A stretch of DNA of 64,000 bases from positions 1 to 64,000 of the forward strand of contig NZ_JAKZLF010000029.1 in the NCBI RefSeq assembly GCF_022808855.1. The letters run 5' to 3'. The stretch comes from Anaeromyxobacter soli (GTDB lineage Bacteria > Myxococcota > Myxococcia > Myxococcales > Anaeromyxobacteraceae). This document shows, piece after piece, positions 19,379 through 25,534 of the stretch. The notes below the pieces were generated by a model, which worked only from the letters and a program-made list of their open reading frames with translations, was not told where the DNA came from and ran no database searches. How positions within the stretch are numbered: the first letter of the stretch is position 1; every line of letters begins with the position of its first letter. Position numbers and translations under genes: made by a program.

Positions 19379-19684
19379 ATGCAGAGCAAGACCCCCTCCC
19401 TCATCGGCGCCGGACTCGGCCTCGCCCTCTTCCTCGCCGTCGCGCTCCTCCCCTCGATGCTGTACGGCGGCTACGCGGGCGTGCTCCTCGCCGGCGGCAT
19501 CTTCGGCACGCCGCTCGAGCCGACGTTCCTCGTGCGCGCGCTCATCGTCTTCGGGATCGTGCTCGGCGTGGCCGGCGTGGGCGCGCTGTTCGCGGTGATG
19601 GGCGCCGCCGCGGGCGCCGGCGTGGGCGCGCTGACCGGCCTCGCCGTCCGGAAGCCGGCCGCCCAGGAGGCGTCGCCCGAGTAG
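19379..19684 (+). CDS. small three-helix membrane protein
   Basis: This 101-residue hydrophobic protein begins MQSKTPSLIGAGLGLALFL and has about three membrane segments (about 8-24, 28-48 and 52-88). The Gly/Ala-rich third segment could be two helices. CAGGAGAACCGTC gives a good Shine-Dalgarno 7 bases before the ATG. The 230 bases upstream hold no gene. A terminator follows at 19714. I recognise no family. Confidence 0.65.
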   Translation: MQSKTPSLIGAGLGLALFLAVALLPSMLYGGYAGVLLAGGIFGTPLEPTFLVRALIVFGIVLGVAGVGALFAVMGAAAGAGVGALTGLAVRKPAAQEASPE

Positions 19685-19713
19685 CTGCGCCGCCGATGTG
19701 CCGCTCGACCCGT

Positions 19714-19749
19714 CGCGGGCCCGGGGACCTCTCCGGGCTCGCGGCTTTT
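19714..19749 (+). terminator. intrinsic terminator upstream of the cytochrome module
   Basis: CGCGGGCCCGG and CCGGGCTCGCG form an 11-bp stem with one G-U pair and an 8-base loop, followed by GCTTTT. It isolates the cytochrome promoter region from the gene before it. Confidence 0.7.
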
Positions 19750-19793
19750 CTCGCGGCGGTGTGCGCGAACGCGCAGCCTTTCCCGTTCGGGCC

Positions 19794-19841
19794 GATTGCG
19801 CGCAAGCTTTGCGACCTCCCGGCGATTGATGTCGCGCAAAC
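19794..19841 (+). promoter_or_regulatory. candidate activator sites upstream of the cytochrome gene
   Basis: Two 14-base direct repeats match at 11 of 14 positions: GATTGCGCGCAAGC (19794-19807) and GATGTCGCGCAAAC (19828-19841), 34 bases apart. The first contains the perfect palindrome TTGCGCGCAA, and TTTGCGAC (19808-19815) adds another half-site. They lie about 75-115 bases upstream of the predicted sigma-54 start, where NtrC-type activators usually bind. Confidence 0.4.
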
Positions 19842-19886
19842 CCTCGTGATTTCCGGAACATAACCTCAGAATCTGTTTGGGTGCAG

Positions 19887-19902
19887 GGGCATGTCCGTTG
19901 CA
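19887..19902 (+). promoter_or_regulatory. candidate sigma-54 promoter
   Basis: GGGCATG-TCCG-TTGCA closely matches the sigma-54 consensus TGGCACG-N4-TTGCA, with GG (19888-19889) and GC (19900-19901) separated by the required 10 bases. Transcription would start near 19913, only about 7 bases before the ATG at 19920. The site also lies inside a GGGTGCA/TGCACCC inverted repeat (19879-19905). Confidence 0.45.
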
Positions 19903-19919
19903 CCCGCGACCCACCGCCT

Positions 19920-21632
19920 ATGCGAGCCATTCTCCTCTCCTTCGCGCTCCTCCTCGCCTCGACCGCTCGGGCGGAAGAGCCGAAGCTGCCCCAGGGCAGC
20001 GACACCTGTCTCCAGTGCCACTCCCCCGGCGGCGACGGCCCCACCGTCCACCCGGACCTCTTCGCCAAGTCCGTCCACGCCCAGAACGGCGTCGGCTGCA
20101 CGGACTGCCACGCGGGCTACACGGAAGAGCACGCGATGGGCGGCACCCTCCCGCCCCTGTCCGACGCGGAGCAGAAGTTCGTCTCCCGGCTGGAGAAGGC
20201 CGCCTGGGCCGACGGCGAGAAGAAGGTGAAGGTCACCTCCCCGCGCGCCTACCTCGCCTGCCAGAACTGCCACACCGAGCAGACCGACGCGTTCGCCGCC
20301 TCGGTCCACTCGAAGTGGCAGCGTGAGGACGCGAAGGTCGCGGGTCCCACCTGCGCCTCCTGCCACGGCTCGCTCCACTCCGTGAAGGCGCTGGCGTTCT
20401 ACGAGCCGAAGTCCGGCGCCCGCCAGCCGGTGCCCGAGGATCGCCGCGCGATGGCGAAGCGCTGCGAGGCCTGCCACGGCAACGAGGAGTTCGCCAAGGA
20501 GGCCGGCCTCAACCCCGAGGCGGCGGTCACCTACCACGACTCCATCCACGGCCGCCTCGTCCGCGTCGGCAACACCTTCGCGCCGGTGTGCGTGAGCTGC
20601 CACGCGGCGCCCGCGAACCGGGGCGGCACCCACGCGATCGTGGCGAAGACGGACCCGAACTCGATCGTGAACGTGAAGAACCGCAAGGACGCCTGCGCGC
20701 GCTGCCACGCCGGCGCCACGGACAGCTTCGCGTCGCTCATCGCCCACAAGACGCCGCAGGAGACGTCCGGGCACCCCGTCCCGCACATCATCCACATCGC
20801 GTTCTCGTACCTCACCACGCTCACGCTGCTGTTCTTCGCGTTCCACGTGCTCGTCGACTTCGTCTACGAGCTGCGCCAGCGCATGCGGGCGAAGGGTGGC
20901 CACGGCCCCTCCGTCGACGCGGTGCGGAGCGTCATCCGGTTCGACATCCACCAGCGCATCCAGCACTGGCTCATGCTCTCCGGCGTCATCCTGCTCGGCA
21001 TCACCGGCTGGCCGCTCCGCGGCGCCGGGACGTTCGGCAACGCGCCCATCATCGGGGGCAGGGACGCGGCGCCCTACTCCGAGGCGTTCATGAAGATCTT
21101 CGGCGGCGCGGAGGGCGCGGCGATGTGGCACCGCGTCGGCGCCGTCCTCATCATCGCCTCGTCGATCTACCACCTCTTCTACCTGACGTTCCTCGCGGCC
21201 CAGAAGCGGCTCCCGCTCTCGATGCTGCCCGGGCCGAAGGACGCCGTCGACATGCGGGACAACATCCTCTTCATGCTCGGCGTGAAGAAGGAGCGGCCCA
21301 GGTTCGACCGGTACATGTACCTGGAGAAGTTCGACTACTGGGCCGTGTTCTGGGGCATCGTGATGATGGTGGGCACCGGGTTCATCTTCTGGTTCCCGGC
21401 CTTCTTCGCGGCGTGGGCGCCGAGCTGGCTCATCTCCTCCGCCCTCATCATCCACGGCGAGGAGGCGACGCTCGCGATCCTCTTCCTCTTCGTGGTGCAC
21501 TTCTACAACGTGCACCTGAAGCCCTCGATCTTCCCGATGAACTGGGCCTGGCTGAACGGCCGGATCAGCGTCGAGATGATGAAGCACGAGCATCCGCTGG
21601 AGTACGACCGGATGAGCGACGAGCAGAAGTAA
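19920..21632 (+). CDS. seven-haem c plus cytochrome b inner-membrane quinol oxidoreductase (CbcL-like)
   Basis: The 570-residue fusion starts with a signal peptide (MRAILLSFALLLASTARA). A periplasmic domain to about residue 270 has seven CXXCH haem sites in order: CLQCH, CTDCH, CQNCH, CASCH, CEACH, CVSCH, CARCH. A cytochrome b domain follows with about five helices (near 280-310, 345-365, 400-425, 475-500, 520-545). Several carry His residues able to hold two b haems, for example HQRIQHW, WHRVG with IYHLFY, and VVHFYNVHL. This architecture resembles Geobacter CbcL, which takes electrons from menaquinol to periplasmic cytochromes during metal reduction. It is a single-gene unit between two terminators, behind a candidate sigma-54 promoter. 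Confidence 0.88.
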   Translation: MRAILLSFALLLASTARAEEPKLPQGSDTCLQCHSPGGDGPTVHPDLFAKSVHAQNGVGCTDCHAGYTEEHAMGGTLPPLSDAEQKFVSRLEKAAWADGEKKVKVTSPRAYLACQNCHTEQTDAFAASVHSKWQREDAKVAGPTCASCHGSLHSVKALAFYEPKSGARQPVPEDRRAMAKRCEACHGNEEFAKEAGLNPEAAVTYHDSIHGRLVRVGNTFAPVCVSCHAAPANRGGTHAIVAKTDPNSIVNVKNRKDACARCHAGATDSFASLIAHKTPQETSGHPVPHIIHIAFSYLTTLTLLFFAFHVLVDFVYELRQRMRAKGGHGPSVDAVRSVIRFDIHQRIQHWLMLSGVILLGITGWPLRGAGTFGNAPIIGGRDAAPYSEAFMKIFGGAEGAAMWHRVGAVLIIASSIYHLFYLTFLAAQKRLPLSMLPGPKDAVDMRDNILFMLGVKKERPRFDRYMYLEKFDYWAVFWGIVMMVGTGFIFWFPAFFAAWAPSWLISSALIIHGEEATLAILFLFVVHFYNVHLKPSIFPMNWAWLNGRISVEMMKHEHPLEYDRMSDEQK

Positions 21633-21657: not shown

Positions 21658-21696
21658 GGGGGGCCGCGCGGGAGACTGCGCGGCCCCCCTCTTTTT
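21658..21696 (+). terminator. strong intrinsic terminator after the CbcL-like gene
   Basis: GGGGGGCCGCGC (21658-21669) and GCGCGGCCCCCC (21678-21689) form a perfect 12-bp stem with an 8-base loop, followed by TCTTTTT. It separates the CbcL-like gene from the cytochrome-kinase-regulator operon. Confidence 0.9.
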
Positions 21697-21736: not shown

Positions 21737-21742
21737 TACAAT
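21737..21742 (+). promoter_or_regulatory. -10 box of the 12-haem cytochrome operon
   Basis: TACAAT ends 11 bases before the ATG at 21754. No convincing -35 box or Shine-Dalgarno is visible, so the mRNA would be nearly leaderless. Confidence 0.4.
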
Positions 21743-21753
21743 CGCGCTCCCCC

Positions 21754-22662
21754 ATGAGGCTCTCACGCCCCGCGAAGACGCTGGCCCTCACCCTCGCCGC
21801 GCTCGCCGTGGCCGCCCTCGCCGCGGGCGCGTGGCGCTTCAAGCGCTACGTCGACGAGGATCCGCGCCTCTGCGCGACCTGCCACCAGGCGAGCCCGGAG
21901 TTCGCGCTCTGGATGGCCGGCACGCACAAGAGCGTCGCCTGCCAGCGCTGCCACCACGCGAAGGCCGAGCAGGGCGTCGCCATGCTGGGCGCGTTCCTCC
22001 TCGGGAAGGCGCCGGCGGGGCACGGCGGCGTCGAGATCGGCTCCTGCGCCGAGTGCCACTTCTCGCACGACCCGCGCTGGCCGCAGGTGGGGGGCTCGCG
22101 CGGCCACCGGATCCACTACGAGCAGCACCGCATCGCCTGCGTGCGCTGCCACGCCGCGAGCATGCACGGCTTCGAGCCCATCGCCGCGAAGTGCGCCGAG
22201 TGCCACCCCGGCCACGCCGTCCGCGTGCAGGGCATGGAAGGGATGCACTGCTTCGCGTGCCACGAGTTCCTCGGCGACGCTCCCGGGCTCCGGCCGACGC
22301 GCCGCGACTGCCTCCGCTGCCACACCGCCCAGGGCATCCACGCGCCGGTGAAGGAGCACGGCCCGATGGCGATGGCCTGCTCGAGCTGCCACCGGCCGCA
22401 CGCCCCGCCGGGCGAGACGCTCGTCTCCTGCACGCACTGCCACGACTTCGCCGCGACGCGGCGCGCGGGGCTGCACGCGAACGCCGCCCACGCCCGCTGC
22501 GTGGACTGCCACCCGCCGCACACCTGGTCCGCCGAGCCGGCGAGCTGCCAGCGCTGCCACGCGCACGCCAGCGCGCACGCGAACGGGAAGACCTGCACCG
22601 CCTGCCACGCCTTCGCCGGCGCGCCGCGGCCCCTGCACCCGCAGGAGGAGGGCGGGCCGTGA
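21754..22662 (+). CDS. membrane-anchored dodecahaem cytochrome c
   Basis: The 302-residue protein has an uncleaved-looking N-terminal helix (about 10-27) like NapC/NrfH anchors and then twelve CXXCH sites: CATCH, CQRCH, CAECH, CVRCH, CAECH, CFACH, CLRCH, CSSCH, CTHCH, CVDCH, CQRCH and CTACH. Only the first part looks NapC/NirT-like; the long haem-rich remainder has no partner I recognise. It probably carries electrons through the periplasm from the CbcL-like oxidoreductase. Its stop overlaps the kinase start (GTGA), so cytochrome and kinase synthesis are coupled. Confidence 0.9.
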   Translation: MRLSRPAKTLALTLAALAVAALAAGAWRFKRYVDEDPRLCATCHQASPEFALWMAGTHKSVACQRCHHAKAEQGVAMLGAFLLGKAPAGHGGVEIGSCAECHFSHDPRWPQVGGSRGHRIHYEQHRIACVRCHAASMHGFEPIAAKCAECHPGHAVRVQGMEGMHCFACHEFLGDAPGLRPTRRDCLRCHTAQGIHAPVKEHGPMAMACSSCHRPHAPPGETLVSCTHCHDFAATRRAGLHANAAHARCVDCHPPHTWSAEPASCQRCHAHASAHANGKTCTACHAFAGAPRPLHPQEEGGP

Positions 22663-24164
22663 CCCTCAGGCTCAAGCTCTTCGTCCTCATCGCGGCGGTC
22701 ATCATCTTCGCGATGAGCGGCGTCACCGCGGTCGCGCTCTGGCGCGAGGTGGTCCGCGGCCAGGAGCTCCTCGCGCGCGAGGGCGTCGCCATCGCGTCCA
22801 CGGCCGCCACGGCGGGCGCCCACTGGGTGCGGGCCGATGGCGTGGATCCGGGCGGCGAGGCCGCGCTCCCCGCGGTGCTCGAGCGGGTGGTGGCGAGCGC
22901 ACCGCTCGACCGCGCCTGGATCGTCGACCGCAGGGGCAAGGTCCTCGCCTGCGTCACGCGCACGGAGGAGCCCTGCCCCGAGGGCGTTCCGCCCAGCGAG
23001 TTCCAGGTCGCGGAGGCGCCGCTGCAGGCGCTCGGGCGGCTCCTGCGACCGGAGGGGATCGTGGCCTCCGCGCCCATCCTGCGAGGCGGCGCGGTGGTGG
23101 GGGCGGTGCGGGTCGACTTCACCCACGAGGAGGTGATCGGCAACGCCCGCAACCTGGCGTGGGGGGCGAGCATCGTCGCCGCCTTCTGGATCTTCGTCGG
23201 GCAGCTGCTCGCCGCGATCTTCCTCCGCCGCGTGACCCAGCCGCTCGTGCGGCTGTCCGAGGCGGCCGAGTCGCTCGTCGAGGAGCGCGGCGTGCGCCTC
23301 GAGGAGCCTGAGGAGCGCGAGCTCGCCGATCTCGTGCGCGCGTTCAACGACATGTCCCGGCGGCTCGACGACCGCCGCGCCGAGAACCAGCGGCTCATCG
23401 CCGAGCTCGAGGAGCGCGTCGCCCAGAAGACCCGCGAGGTGCTGCGCGCGGACCGCCTCGCGACGCTCGGCGGGATCGCCGCGGGCTTCGCCCACGAGAT
23501 CGGGAACTCCCTGAACGTCATCCGCGGCTACGCGTCGGTGGCGGCCCGCGAGCTCCCGCCGGAGGCGGAGGTGAAGGGCGACGTGGAGGCGATCCGCCGC
23601 GAGGTGACGCGCGCGGCCGTGCTCATCGAGCGCTTCCTCGTGTTCGCGCGCGCCCGCACGGTCCACCCCATCGCCCAGCCGGTCGAGCCGATCCTGCGCG
23701 AGGCGGTGGAGGTGGTCGGCCCCGCGGCCGCGCAGGCGCGGGTCGAGCGCCTGGTCGAGATCGCGCCGGACCTCCCGGACGTGGTGGCCGACGGGGAGCT
23801 GCTCCGCCAGGCGTTCCTGAACCTCTGCGTGAACGCCGTGCAGGCGATGCAGGAGCGCGGGGGCGGCACGCTCGTGGCCCGCGCCCGCCGCGAGGGCGAG
23901 GCCGTGGTGGTCGAGGTGGCGGACAGCGGCCCCGGCCTCGAGCGCGACGTCTCGGCGCACGTGTTCGACCCGTTCTTCACCACCAAGGCGAACGGGACCG
24001 GCCTCGGCCTCGCCATCGTGCGCCAGGCGGCGGAGGCGCACGGCGGGACCGTCGAGGTCGAGAGCGCGCCCGGGCGCGGGGCGACCTTCCGCATCCGCCT
24101 CCCCGCCGCGCCGTCCGAGGCGGCCGTCGCTCTCGCAGGGGACGCCGTGAGAGGAGCGCCGTGA
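22659..24164 (+). CDS. membrane sensor histidine kinase
   Basis: The 501-residue kinase has two membrane segments (about 5-27 and 165-187) enclosing a periplasmic sensor domain, then a HAMP-like linker and coiled coil (about 190-265). The phospho-acceptor box FAHEIGNSLN holds His near 279. The ATPase domain shows the N box (FLNLCVNAVQAM), DSGPGL and GTGLGLAIV. The sensor domain has two cysteines, Cys98 and Cys106, that could respond to redox. It starts at a GTG with Shine-Dalgarno GGAGGAG, overlaps the cytochrome gene by 4 bases and overlaps the regulator gene by 4. It likely phosphorylates that regulator. Confidence 0.92.
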   Translation: MTLRLKLFVLIAAVIIFAMSGVTAVALWREVVRGQELLAREGVAIASTAATAGAHWVRADGVDPGGEAALPAVLERVVASAPLDRAWIVDRRGKVLACVTRTEEPCPEGVPPSEFQVAEAPLQALGRLLRPEGIVASAPILRGGAVVGAVRVDFTHEEVIGNARNLAWGASIVAAFWIFVGQLLAAIFLRRVTQPLVRLSEAAESLVEERGVRLEEPEERELADLVRAFNDMSRRLDDRRAENQRLIAELEERVAQKTREVLRADRLATLGGIAAGFAHEIGNSLNVIRGYASVAARELPPEAEVKGDVEAIRREVTRAAVLIERFLVFARARTVHPIAQPVEPILREAVEVVGPAAAQARVERLVEIAPDLPDVVADGELLRQAFLNLCVNAVQAMQERGGGTLVARARREGEAVVVEVADSGPGLERDVSAHVFDPFFTTKANGTGLGLAIVRQAAEAHGGTVEVESAPGRGATFRIRLPAAPSEAAVALAGDAVRGAP

Positions 24165-25534
24165 GCAAACCGAACCTCATGGTCATCGACGACCTCGACT
24201 CGGCGCGCCAGATGATGAAGCGCACGCTCGGGCGGTCCTACGCCGTGTACGACTTCCCCTCCGTCGCCGAGGCGCTCCCCGCGGTGGAGCGGGCCGAGTT
24301 CGACGCGATCGTGACGGACCTGCGCATGCCGGGGCTCGACGGCATCGAGGGGATGCGCCGCTTCAAGGCGAAGGTGCCGGAGATCCCGGTCATCCTCGTC
24401 ACGGCGTTCGCCACGGTGGAGACCGCGGTCGAGGCGATGAAGGCGGGCGCGTTCGACTACCTCAAGAAGCCGTTCGAGCCGGAGGAGCTCGAGCTCGTCG
24501 TCGCCCGCGCCGTGGAGCACGCCCGCATAAAGCGGGAGAACGCGCGGCTCCGGAGCGCCCTCGCCGGCGAGTTCGGCGTGCACGGGATCATCGGGAAGTC
24601 GCAGCCGATGAAGGCGCTCGTCGGGATGCTCGAGCGGATCGCCCCCTCCGACGTGCCGATCCTGGTCGAGGGCGAGTCCGGCACCGGCAAGGACCTCCTC
24701 GCCCGCGCGGCGCACGCCATGAGCCGGCGCGCAAGCGGGCCCTACGTGGCGCTCAACATGAGCGCCATCCCCGAGAACCTCGCCGAGGCGGAGCTGTTCG
24801 GGCACGAGAAGGGCGCCTTCACCGGCGCCGAGCAGGCGCGGGCCGGGTTCTTCGCCGAGGCGGAGGGCGGCACGCTCTTCCTCGACGAGATCGGCCTCCT
24901 CCCGCCGGCGCTGCAGCCGAAGCTCCTGCGCGTGCTCCAGGACGGCGAGTACATCCCGGTGGGCAGCCGCAAGCCGCGCAAGGCGAACGTGCGGGTGATC
25001 GCGGCGACGAACGAGGACCTCGCCCGGGCCGTGAAGGAGGGGAAGTTCCGCGAGGACCTCTGGTTCCGGCTGCGCGTCGTCCCGCTCCGGCTCCCGCCCC
25101 TGCGCGAGCGGCGCGAGGACATCCCGCTCCTCGTCGAGCACTTCGTCGAGAAGCACGCCCTGCGCCTCGGCCGGCCGCCCCTCGCGCCGGACGGCGAGGC
25201 GATGCGCGCGCTCCTCGACCACCCCTGGCCCGGCAACATCCGCGAGCTCGAGCACGCGATCGAGCGCGGGCTCCTGCTGGCGCGCGGAGACGCGATCACC
25301 CTCGCGGACCTCCCGCCCGAGCTCACCCCGCCCGCAGGCGACGCGGCGGCGGGCGGGGCGGAGGGGCGCTACCGGCGCGCGCGCGACGCGTGGGAGCGGA
25401 AGTTCCTCGAGGACCTCCTGCGCGAGGCGGGCGGCAACGTCGCGAAGGCGGCCGAGTCGGCCGGCCTGCACCGCTCCACGCTCTACGAGAAGCTCCAGCG
25501 CTACGGGCTCGTGGAGAAGGACACGAAGGCGTGA
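24161..25534 (+). CDS. NtrC-family sigma-54-dependent response regulator
   Basis: This 457-residue activator has a receiver domain with the phosphorylated Asp53 (VTDLRMPGLDG) and acidic pocket IDD at 9-11. Next is an AAA+ domain with Walker A GESGTGKD at about 170, the sigma-54 contact loop GAFTGA at about 218 and Walker B GGTLFLDEIG at about 235. A Fis-type helix-turn-helix ends the protein (VAKAAESAGLHRSTLYEKL). All activator motifs are intact. It starts at a GTG overlapping the kinase gene. Its likely target includes the candidate sigma-54 promoter at 19887, inferred from proximity. Confidence 0.95.
   Translation: MSKPNLMVIDDLDSARQMMKRTLGRSYAVYDFPSVAEALPAVERAEFDAIVTDLRMPGLDGIEGMRRFKAKVPEIPVILVTAFATVETAVEAMKAGAFDYLKKPFEPEELELVVARAVEHARIKRENARLRSALAGEFGVHGIIGKSQPMKALVGMLERIAPSDVPILVEGESGTGKDLLARAAHAMSRRASGPYVALNMSAIPENLAEAELFGHEKGAFTGAEQARAGFFAEAEGGTLFLDEIGLLPPALQPKLLRVLQDGEYIPVGSRKPRKANVRVIAATNEDLARAVKEGKFREDLWFRLRVVPLRLPPLRERREDIPLLVEHFVEKHALRLGRPPLAPDGEAMRALLDHPWPGNIRELEHAIERGLLLARGDAITLADLPPELTPPAGDAAAGGAEGRYRRARDAWERKFLEDLLREAGGNVAKAAESAGLHRSTLYEKLQRYGLVEKDTKA

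Follow-up and report, generated by a model that had tools for sequence, protein, structure and literature searches.

A candidate sigma-54 promoter and a shared upstream dyad at a cbcL-like cytochrome gene of Anaeromyxobacter soli

A -24/-12 promoter element stands close to the start codon of a cbcL-like cytochrome gene in the 64,000-nt stretch of Anaeromyxobacter soli DNA that we analysed (the window), and it is conserved in relatives together with an upstream dyad, CGCAA-N3-TTGCG. The same two elements also front genes for making haem and for protein folding, so haem supply and electron-transfer proteins probably share one regulator. We propose that a sigma-54 promoter serves the cbcL-like gene, that a nearby response regulator acting through the dyad drives this gene, hemA2 and a PPIase gene, and that an FNR/CRP-like site supplies a second input; taken as a whole, we consider this account probable. 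Anaeromyxobacter is a metal-reducing soil genus in which the regulation of extracellular electron transfer is little charted, and a search of the literature available to us found no description of such a sigma-54 regulon in it.

Promoter, dyad and leader of the cbcL-like gene

The features of the region, in window coordinates, are these.

19712-19745, + strand: intrinsic terminator of the upstream gene (19379-19684), a 15-bp stem and then TTTTCTC
19770-19781, + strand: CGCGCAGCCTTT, a weaker upstream element and possible second activator site, direct repeat of 19799-19810 (83%)
19801-19813, no strand assigned: CGCAA-N3-TTGCG dyad, candidate enhancer (UAS), centred at about -106 and coupled to the -24/-12 element
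19826-19839, no strand assigned: TTG-N8-CAA dyad TTGATGTCGCGCAA, FNR/CRP-like candidate site, centred at about -80
19861-19866, + strand: TAACCT, resembling a -10 hexamer but weak; its spacing from the TTG-N8-CAA dyad is exactly 21 bp
19887-19902, + strand: -24/-12 sigma-54 promoter element GGGCATGTCCGTTGCA, kept in orthologues near the ATG
19913, + strand: predicted +1, an A (purine), placed by taking C19901 as -12; leader of 7 nt
19920-21632, + strand: cbcL-like gene, 570 aa (Pfam Ni_hydr_CYTB, Cytochrome_C7)
21658-21689, + strand: strong intrinsic terminator after the cbcL-like gene, a 14-bp stem and then TCTTTTT
21737-21742, + strand: TACAAT, a -10-like box and candidate separate promoter, 17 nt before the next ATG
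21754-22662, + strand: multihaem cytochrome c gene (Pfam Cytochrome_C7, Cytochrom_c3_2)
22659-24164, + strand: membrane sensor histidine kinase (HAMP-HisKA-HATPase)
24161-25534, + strand: sigma-54 activator (NtrC-type EBP) with receiver, AAA+ domain with GAFTGA and Fis-type HTH_8

The GG at 19888-19889 and the GC at 19900-19901 are separated by 10 bases, and GGGCATGTCCGTTGCA matches TGGCACG-N4-TTGCW at 10 of 12 positions (8-10 in orthologues), its -24 box being GGGCATG, not TGGCACG. Taken from a single genome this is a weak candidate, fair at best. When we dinucleotide-shuffled the 235-bp intergenic region, 2% of the shuffles held a GG-N10-GC matching at least 10 of the 12 consensus positions, and in our genome-scale background, 2 Mb of tiles from a sister genome (G007), consensus matches with the right spacing were no commoner than those with wrong spacings; this lack of enrichment led us to drop pure consensus scoring as evidence.

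Conservation is what makes the candidate strong. The nearest named match to the window's contig comes from A. terrae SG22, an orthologous contig at 94% in protein; cbcL-like orthologues occur in 23 of 24 family genomes, with upstream DNA readable for 22. In 16 of these 22, which are related sequences and not independent samples, spread over genera g1, g3, g5 and g6, a -24/-12 element scoring 8-10 of 12 begins 31-37 bp before the ATG. The distance from GG-N10-GC to the ATG is thus near-fixed in DNA that otherwise aligns poorly, and several relatives have a -24 box nearer consensus than the window's, for example GGGCACATCGGTTGCA (loci L008-L010). The six remaining orthologues comprise two g2 loci with TGGCC-type sites somewhat farther from the ATG, one g2 locus with a candidate at -118 and three with no -24/-12 element near the ATG. 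The paralogous cbcL locus on contig C1 has no -24/-12 element, and the stretch examined in an Oligoflexia relative outside the family (L274) shows neither a -24/-12 element nor an EBP gene. RpoN is encoded once in the genome (Sigma54_DBD match, E 3.2e-65). The initial annotation had read a -24/-12 site with 10-base spacing here, and conservation in 16 orthologues, with RpoN encoded, bears it out: on this comparison, 19887-19902 is almost certainly a genuine sigma-54 promoter, belonging to a known kind. A perfect 7-bp inverted repeat, GGGTGCA-N13-TGCACCC (19879-19905), straddles the site; among the genomes read it occurs only here and in A. terrae, the nearest relative, and it is probably either chance or a species-specific operator.

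Presence of the CGCAA-N3-TTGCG dyad follows that of the promoter. In its common form, CGCA-N5-TGCR, it accompanies all 16 start-proximal -24/-12 elements and none of the six orthologues that lack one, and the inverted repeat in the window exceeds chance (shuffle P 0.003). We regard it as a candidate activator site with a newly recognised motif. The enhancer had previously been sought in two 14-base direct repeats, GATTGCGCGCAAGC (19794-19807) and GATGTCGCGCAAAC (19828-19841), at about -119 to -72. These exist as described, identical at 11 of 14 positions and 34 bases apart, but the evidence does not support reading them as paired, equivalent enhancers: three such pairs were observed against a shuffle mean of 3.3 (P 0.49), the pair is not retained in all relatives, and its members belong to two different conserved dyads. 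The first overlaps CGCAA-N3-TTGCG; the second carries the right half of the TTG-N8-CAA dyad and falls mostly inside 19826-19839. We accordingly set the direct-repeat model aside. The usual upstream place of an activator site would be taken by the conserved dyad and not by the repeats. By eye, genus members also show GCGCA..(C)CTTTCC at the position of CGCGCAGCCTTT.

The promoter implies a start at A19913, 7 nt from the ATG at 19920, which agrees with the earlier estimate of about seven bases; predicted leaders of 5-11 nt recur in the 16 orthologues. The product begins with MRAILLSFALLL, a signal-peptide-like N-terminus conserved in orthologues, so a start-codon error is an unlikely cause of the short leader. 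The 16 sigma-54 orthologues have no space for, and little trace of, a Shine-Dalgarno sequence, whereas several of the six without the site have GGA-rich leaders with anti-SD energies to -8.4 kcal/mol. Shine-Dalgarno-like leaders would thus tend to appear where the sigma-54 promoter has been lost, in a contrast that is not clean, as g6 loci and L014 also score for anti-SD. The conserved short leader would make this gene a tractable example in which a sigma-54 promoter goes with leader-poor translation.

Shared promoters and the candidate activator

Scanning the dyads of the same genome against -24/-12 sites yielded two further promoters, both on contig C1. The first, GGGCACGGCGCTTGCT with a dyad 56 bp upstream, precedes hemA2, a second hemA copy in addition to the usual one, whose product scores over the TIGR01035 cut-off for glutamyl-tRNA reductase; the second, GGGCACACGCGTTGCA with a dyad 89 bp upstream, precedes a PPIase gene near multihaem cytochromes. 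All 12 hemA2 orthologues have a -24/-12 element scoring 10-11 of 12, and 11 have a strict dyad; both elements accompany 10 of 17 PPIase homologues. Leaders at these two promoters are longer, many with GGAG-type sites. Matrices trained on cbcL-like promoters only, and run over 2 Mb of G007 and our own sequence, returned at a strict threshold four dyad/-24/-12 pairs against 0.09 expected (downstream control, 0); these are the cbcL-like and PPIase promoters of both genomes, with two of the four accounted for by the training promoter or its orthologue. Across the family, a search for the exact pattern gave 37 matches, compared with 8 for the reversed pattern, and 28 or 29 of the 37 fall at the three operons, the remainder being close to background.

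Several other sites came up in these searches. In the hemA2 upstream regions (L217-L228) a conserved element, CGCA-N5-TTCG, precedes the dyad by about 41 bp; it resembles the CGCA..CTTTCC (19770-19781) upstream of the cbcL-like dyad and may be a second, weaker site for the activator. An FNR-like gene on C78 has the dyad upstream but no good -24/-12 element, and was rejected as a target. Elsewhere in the genome, a strong -24/-12 element at C8:5467-5481 (L196), GGCACGTGCGTTGCA, has its predicted start about 3 nt before an ATG and is a candidate for a second near-leaderless sigma-54 gene. At C80:103142-103157 (L002), a gene reading like lpxC, presumably a UDP-3-O-acyl-GlcNAc deacetylase, is preceded by TGGCACATCGATTGCT; it would be an unusual sigma-54 target, if real.

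The arrangement of genes suggests how the activator itself is expressed. The terminator at 19712-19745 (fold of 19700-19760, z-score -5.3) would insulate the promoter region from the upstream gene. The cbcL-like gene, whose product has seven CxxCH haem motifs and a cytochrome b561 domain, is probably transcribed alone, because a strong terminator follows it, with a hairpin at the equivalent position in most orthologues. Given this terminator and the TACAAT box behind it (seven loci of the genus have TACAAT or TAGAAT there, 15-17 nt from the ATG), the cytochrome c, kinase and regulator genes are probably a separate sigma-70-type unit, with no autoregulation tying the activator to the -24/-12 promoter, and we set aside a single-operon model in which the regulator would be transcribed with the cbcL-like gene. 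The genus-conserved TACAAT box ends about 11 nt before the cytochrome c ATG (window 21737-21754); from its position, this mRNA too is predicted to be nearly leaderless.

The initial annotation had noted a downstream regulator gene with an intact GAFTGA loop. We located it at 24161-25534, and its product is likely to be the activator at the dyad. Receiver, Sigma54_activat and HTH_8 are all Pfam matches over cut-off, and the GAFTGA loop is represented by GAFTGA, GAFSGA or GSFSGA among 18 aligned orthologues. The protein falls below the curated cut-offs of the named EBP equivalogs (NtrC, AtoC, ZraR, PEP-CTERM regulator, NtrX), its best NCBIfam scores being 435.9 for AtoC (cut-off 714) and 435.1 for NtrC (558.6).

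A competing account, which we think clearly less likely but worth serious weight, leaves promoter and dyad as described and has a different EBP bind the dyad, with other targets for the neighbouring kinase-regulator pair. About 43 related activators are encoded in the genome, the regulator probably lies outside the cbcL-like transcription unit, and six orthologues keep the adjacent regulator with no dyad near the cytochrome gene, as seen in g2, g4 and two g5 genomes. However, genomes lacking the dyad here have it with a -24/-12 element elsewhere. In G009 and G011 it stands at the PPIase gene; in G012 and G017, both g5 genomes whose cbcL-like gene has lost its sigma-54 site, it occurs in mutually similar sequences (G012:C235:20396 and G017:C6:167259). 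In every genome with both on one contig, moreover, the regulator gene follows the cbcL-like gene at a short distance; the regulator's recognition segment, HRST.YEKL, does not vary among 18 orthologues and is unlike that of seven paralogues sampled from the same genome; and G016 (92% complete), the only well-covered genome with no orthologue of the regulator, lacks the cbcL-like gene, hemA2 and PPIase as well. These observations favour the adjacent regulator.

An FNR/CRP-like element upstream of the promoter

The TTG-N8-CAA dyad is found in 19 of 22 orthologues, including three with neither the sigma-54 site nor the CGCAA-N3-TTGCG dyad. Measured against TTGAT-N4-ATCAA, 19826-19839 has a perfect left half and CGCAA as its right half, and some orthologues have a near-perfect palindrome, for example TTGACTCCCATCAA. 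The spacing of exactly 21 bp to the -10-like hexamer recurs in other lineages, with TAGAAT or TATCCT in orthologue sequences and alignment, and approximates the geometry of class II FNR/CRP promoters. The genome encodes two proteins of the CRP/FNR family whose recognition helix carries E..SR, and strict TTGAY-N4-RTCAA palindromes in it number 12 against 2 in a reversed control, a six-fold excess; the 12 do not show a -10 at the 21-bp geometry. Three of them (C1:90218, 92175 and 137056; L063-L065) are neighbours of a multihaem cytochrome gene and precede the second cbcL-like paralogue, which suggests that the same electron-transfer region harbours an FNR-like regulon. A second, FNR-like input at 19826-19839 is therefore a plausible reading of the sequence.

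It is much less plausible that this element marks the main promoter, of class II FNR/CRP-type and sigma-70-dependent, with the -24/-12 element secondary. The dyad is centred about 28 bp upstream of the -10 (TAACCT; TAGAAT in relatives), and the exact 21-bp spacing holds in several genera, also where sigma-54 has been lost; with the two E..SR proteins and the excess of palindromes, this speaks for such a promoter. Yet the -10 is weak in the window itself, the A. dehalogenans group has TGAGTC in its place while its -24/-12 element is strong, and the coupled dyad and the hemA2 and PPIase promoters would be left unexplained. That the -24/-12 element is a functionless chance match in GC-rich DNA we consider hardly credible, since the absence of enrichment over wrong spacings in 2 Mb and a shuffle P of only 0.02 are outweighed by three findings: the element is conserved in four genera at a fixed distance to the ATG, it is present or absent together with the dyad, and it recurs in front of two more operons.

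A proposed regulon and its known counterparts

In the model that we prefer, the membrane kinase would phosphorylate a two-component activator, most likely the regulator at 24161-25534, which would bind the CGCAA-N3-TTGCG dyad centred near -106 and open the RNA polymerase complex; RpoN-dependent transcription from 19887-19902 would then yield a nearly leaderless cbcL-like mRNA. The same activator and dyad would drive hemA2 and the PPIase gene near multihaem cytochromes, so that one signal would raise haem supply, a folding helper and electron-transfer cytochromes together, with the FNR/CRP-like dyad at 19826-19839 as a separate, sigma-54-independent input. Joint control of haem supply and electron-transfer proteins by one regulator is thus probable, and from a compact regulon marked by a defined motif it can be predicted that a single kinase-regulator pair adjusts haem, folding helper and cytochromes jointly. 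We are evenly divided on the broader claim that this sigma-54 regulon is specific to the Anaeromyxobacteraceae, placing hemA2, the PPIase and an inner-membrane cytochrome under one kinase, and that the cytochrome promoter evolved a near-leaderless mRNA.

Known systems offer partial precedents. Comparative reconstruction of sigma-54 regulons in Desulfovibrio vulgaris, where each genome has many EBP genes, likewise found conserved -24/-12 elements and EBP motifs upstream of orthologous operons, in another lineage and with other targets; a GCAA-containing motif is absent from the main text of that work, whose motif logos stand in figures (PMC4641369). NtrC/ZraR/AtoC-type promoters share with ours the GG-N10-GC -24/-12 element, RpoN, an upstream dyad 50-130 bp away and a response regulator with a GAFTGA AAA+ domain and Fis-type HTH. 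The present case differs from them in the CGCAA-N3-TTGCG dyad, in a regulator that scores below named equivalog cut-offs and is encoded in a separate unit, and in a 5-11 nt leader with no clear Shine-Dalgarno sequence. The element at 19826-19839 is, like FNR/CRP sites (TTGAT-N4-ATCAA), a 14-bp dyad with TTG and CAA ends in a genome with FNR-like proteins, but it departs from them in its right half and in lying upstream of a sigma-54 promoter. In Geobacter, cbcBA is reportedly controlled by the RpoN-dependent regulator BccR (work attributed to Joshi et al., 2021). The cbcL-like protein resembles Geobacter CbcL/CbcBA in joining a multihaem c domain to a b-type membrane cytochrome, and certain respiratory conditions induce cbcBA (PMC12307469; PMC6148476).
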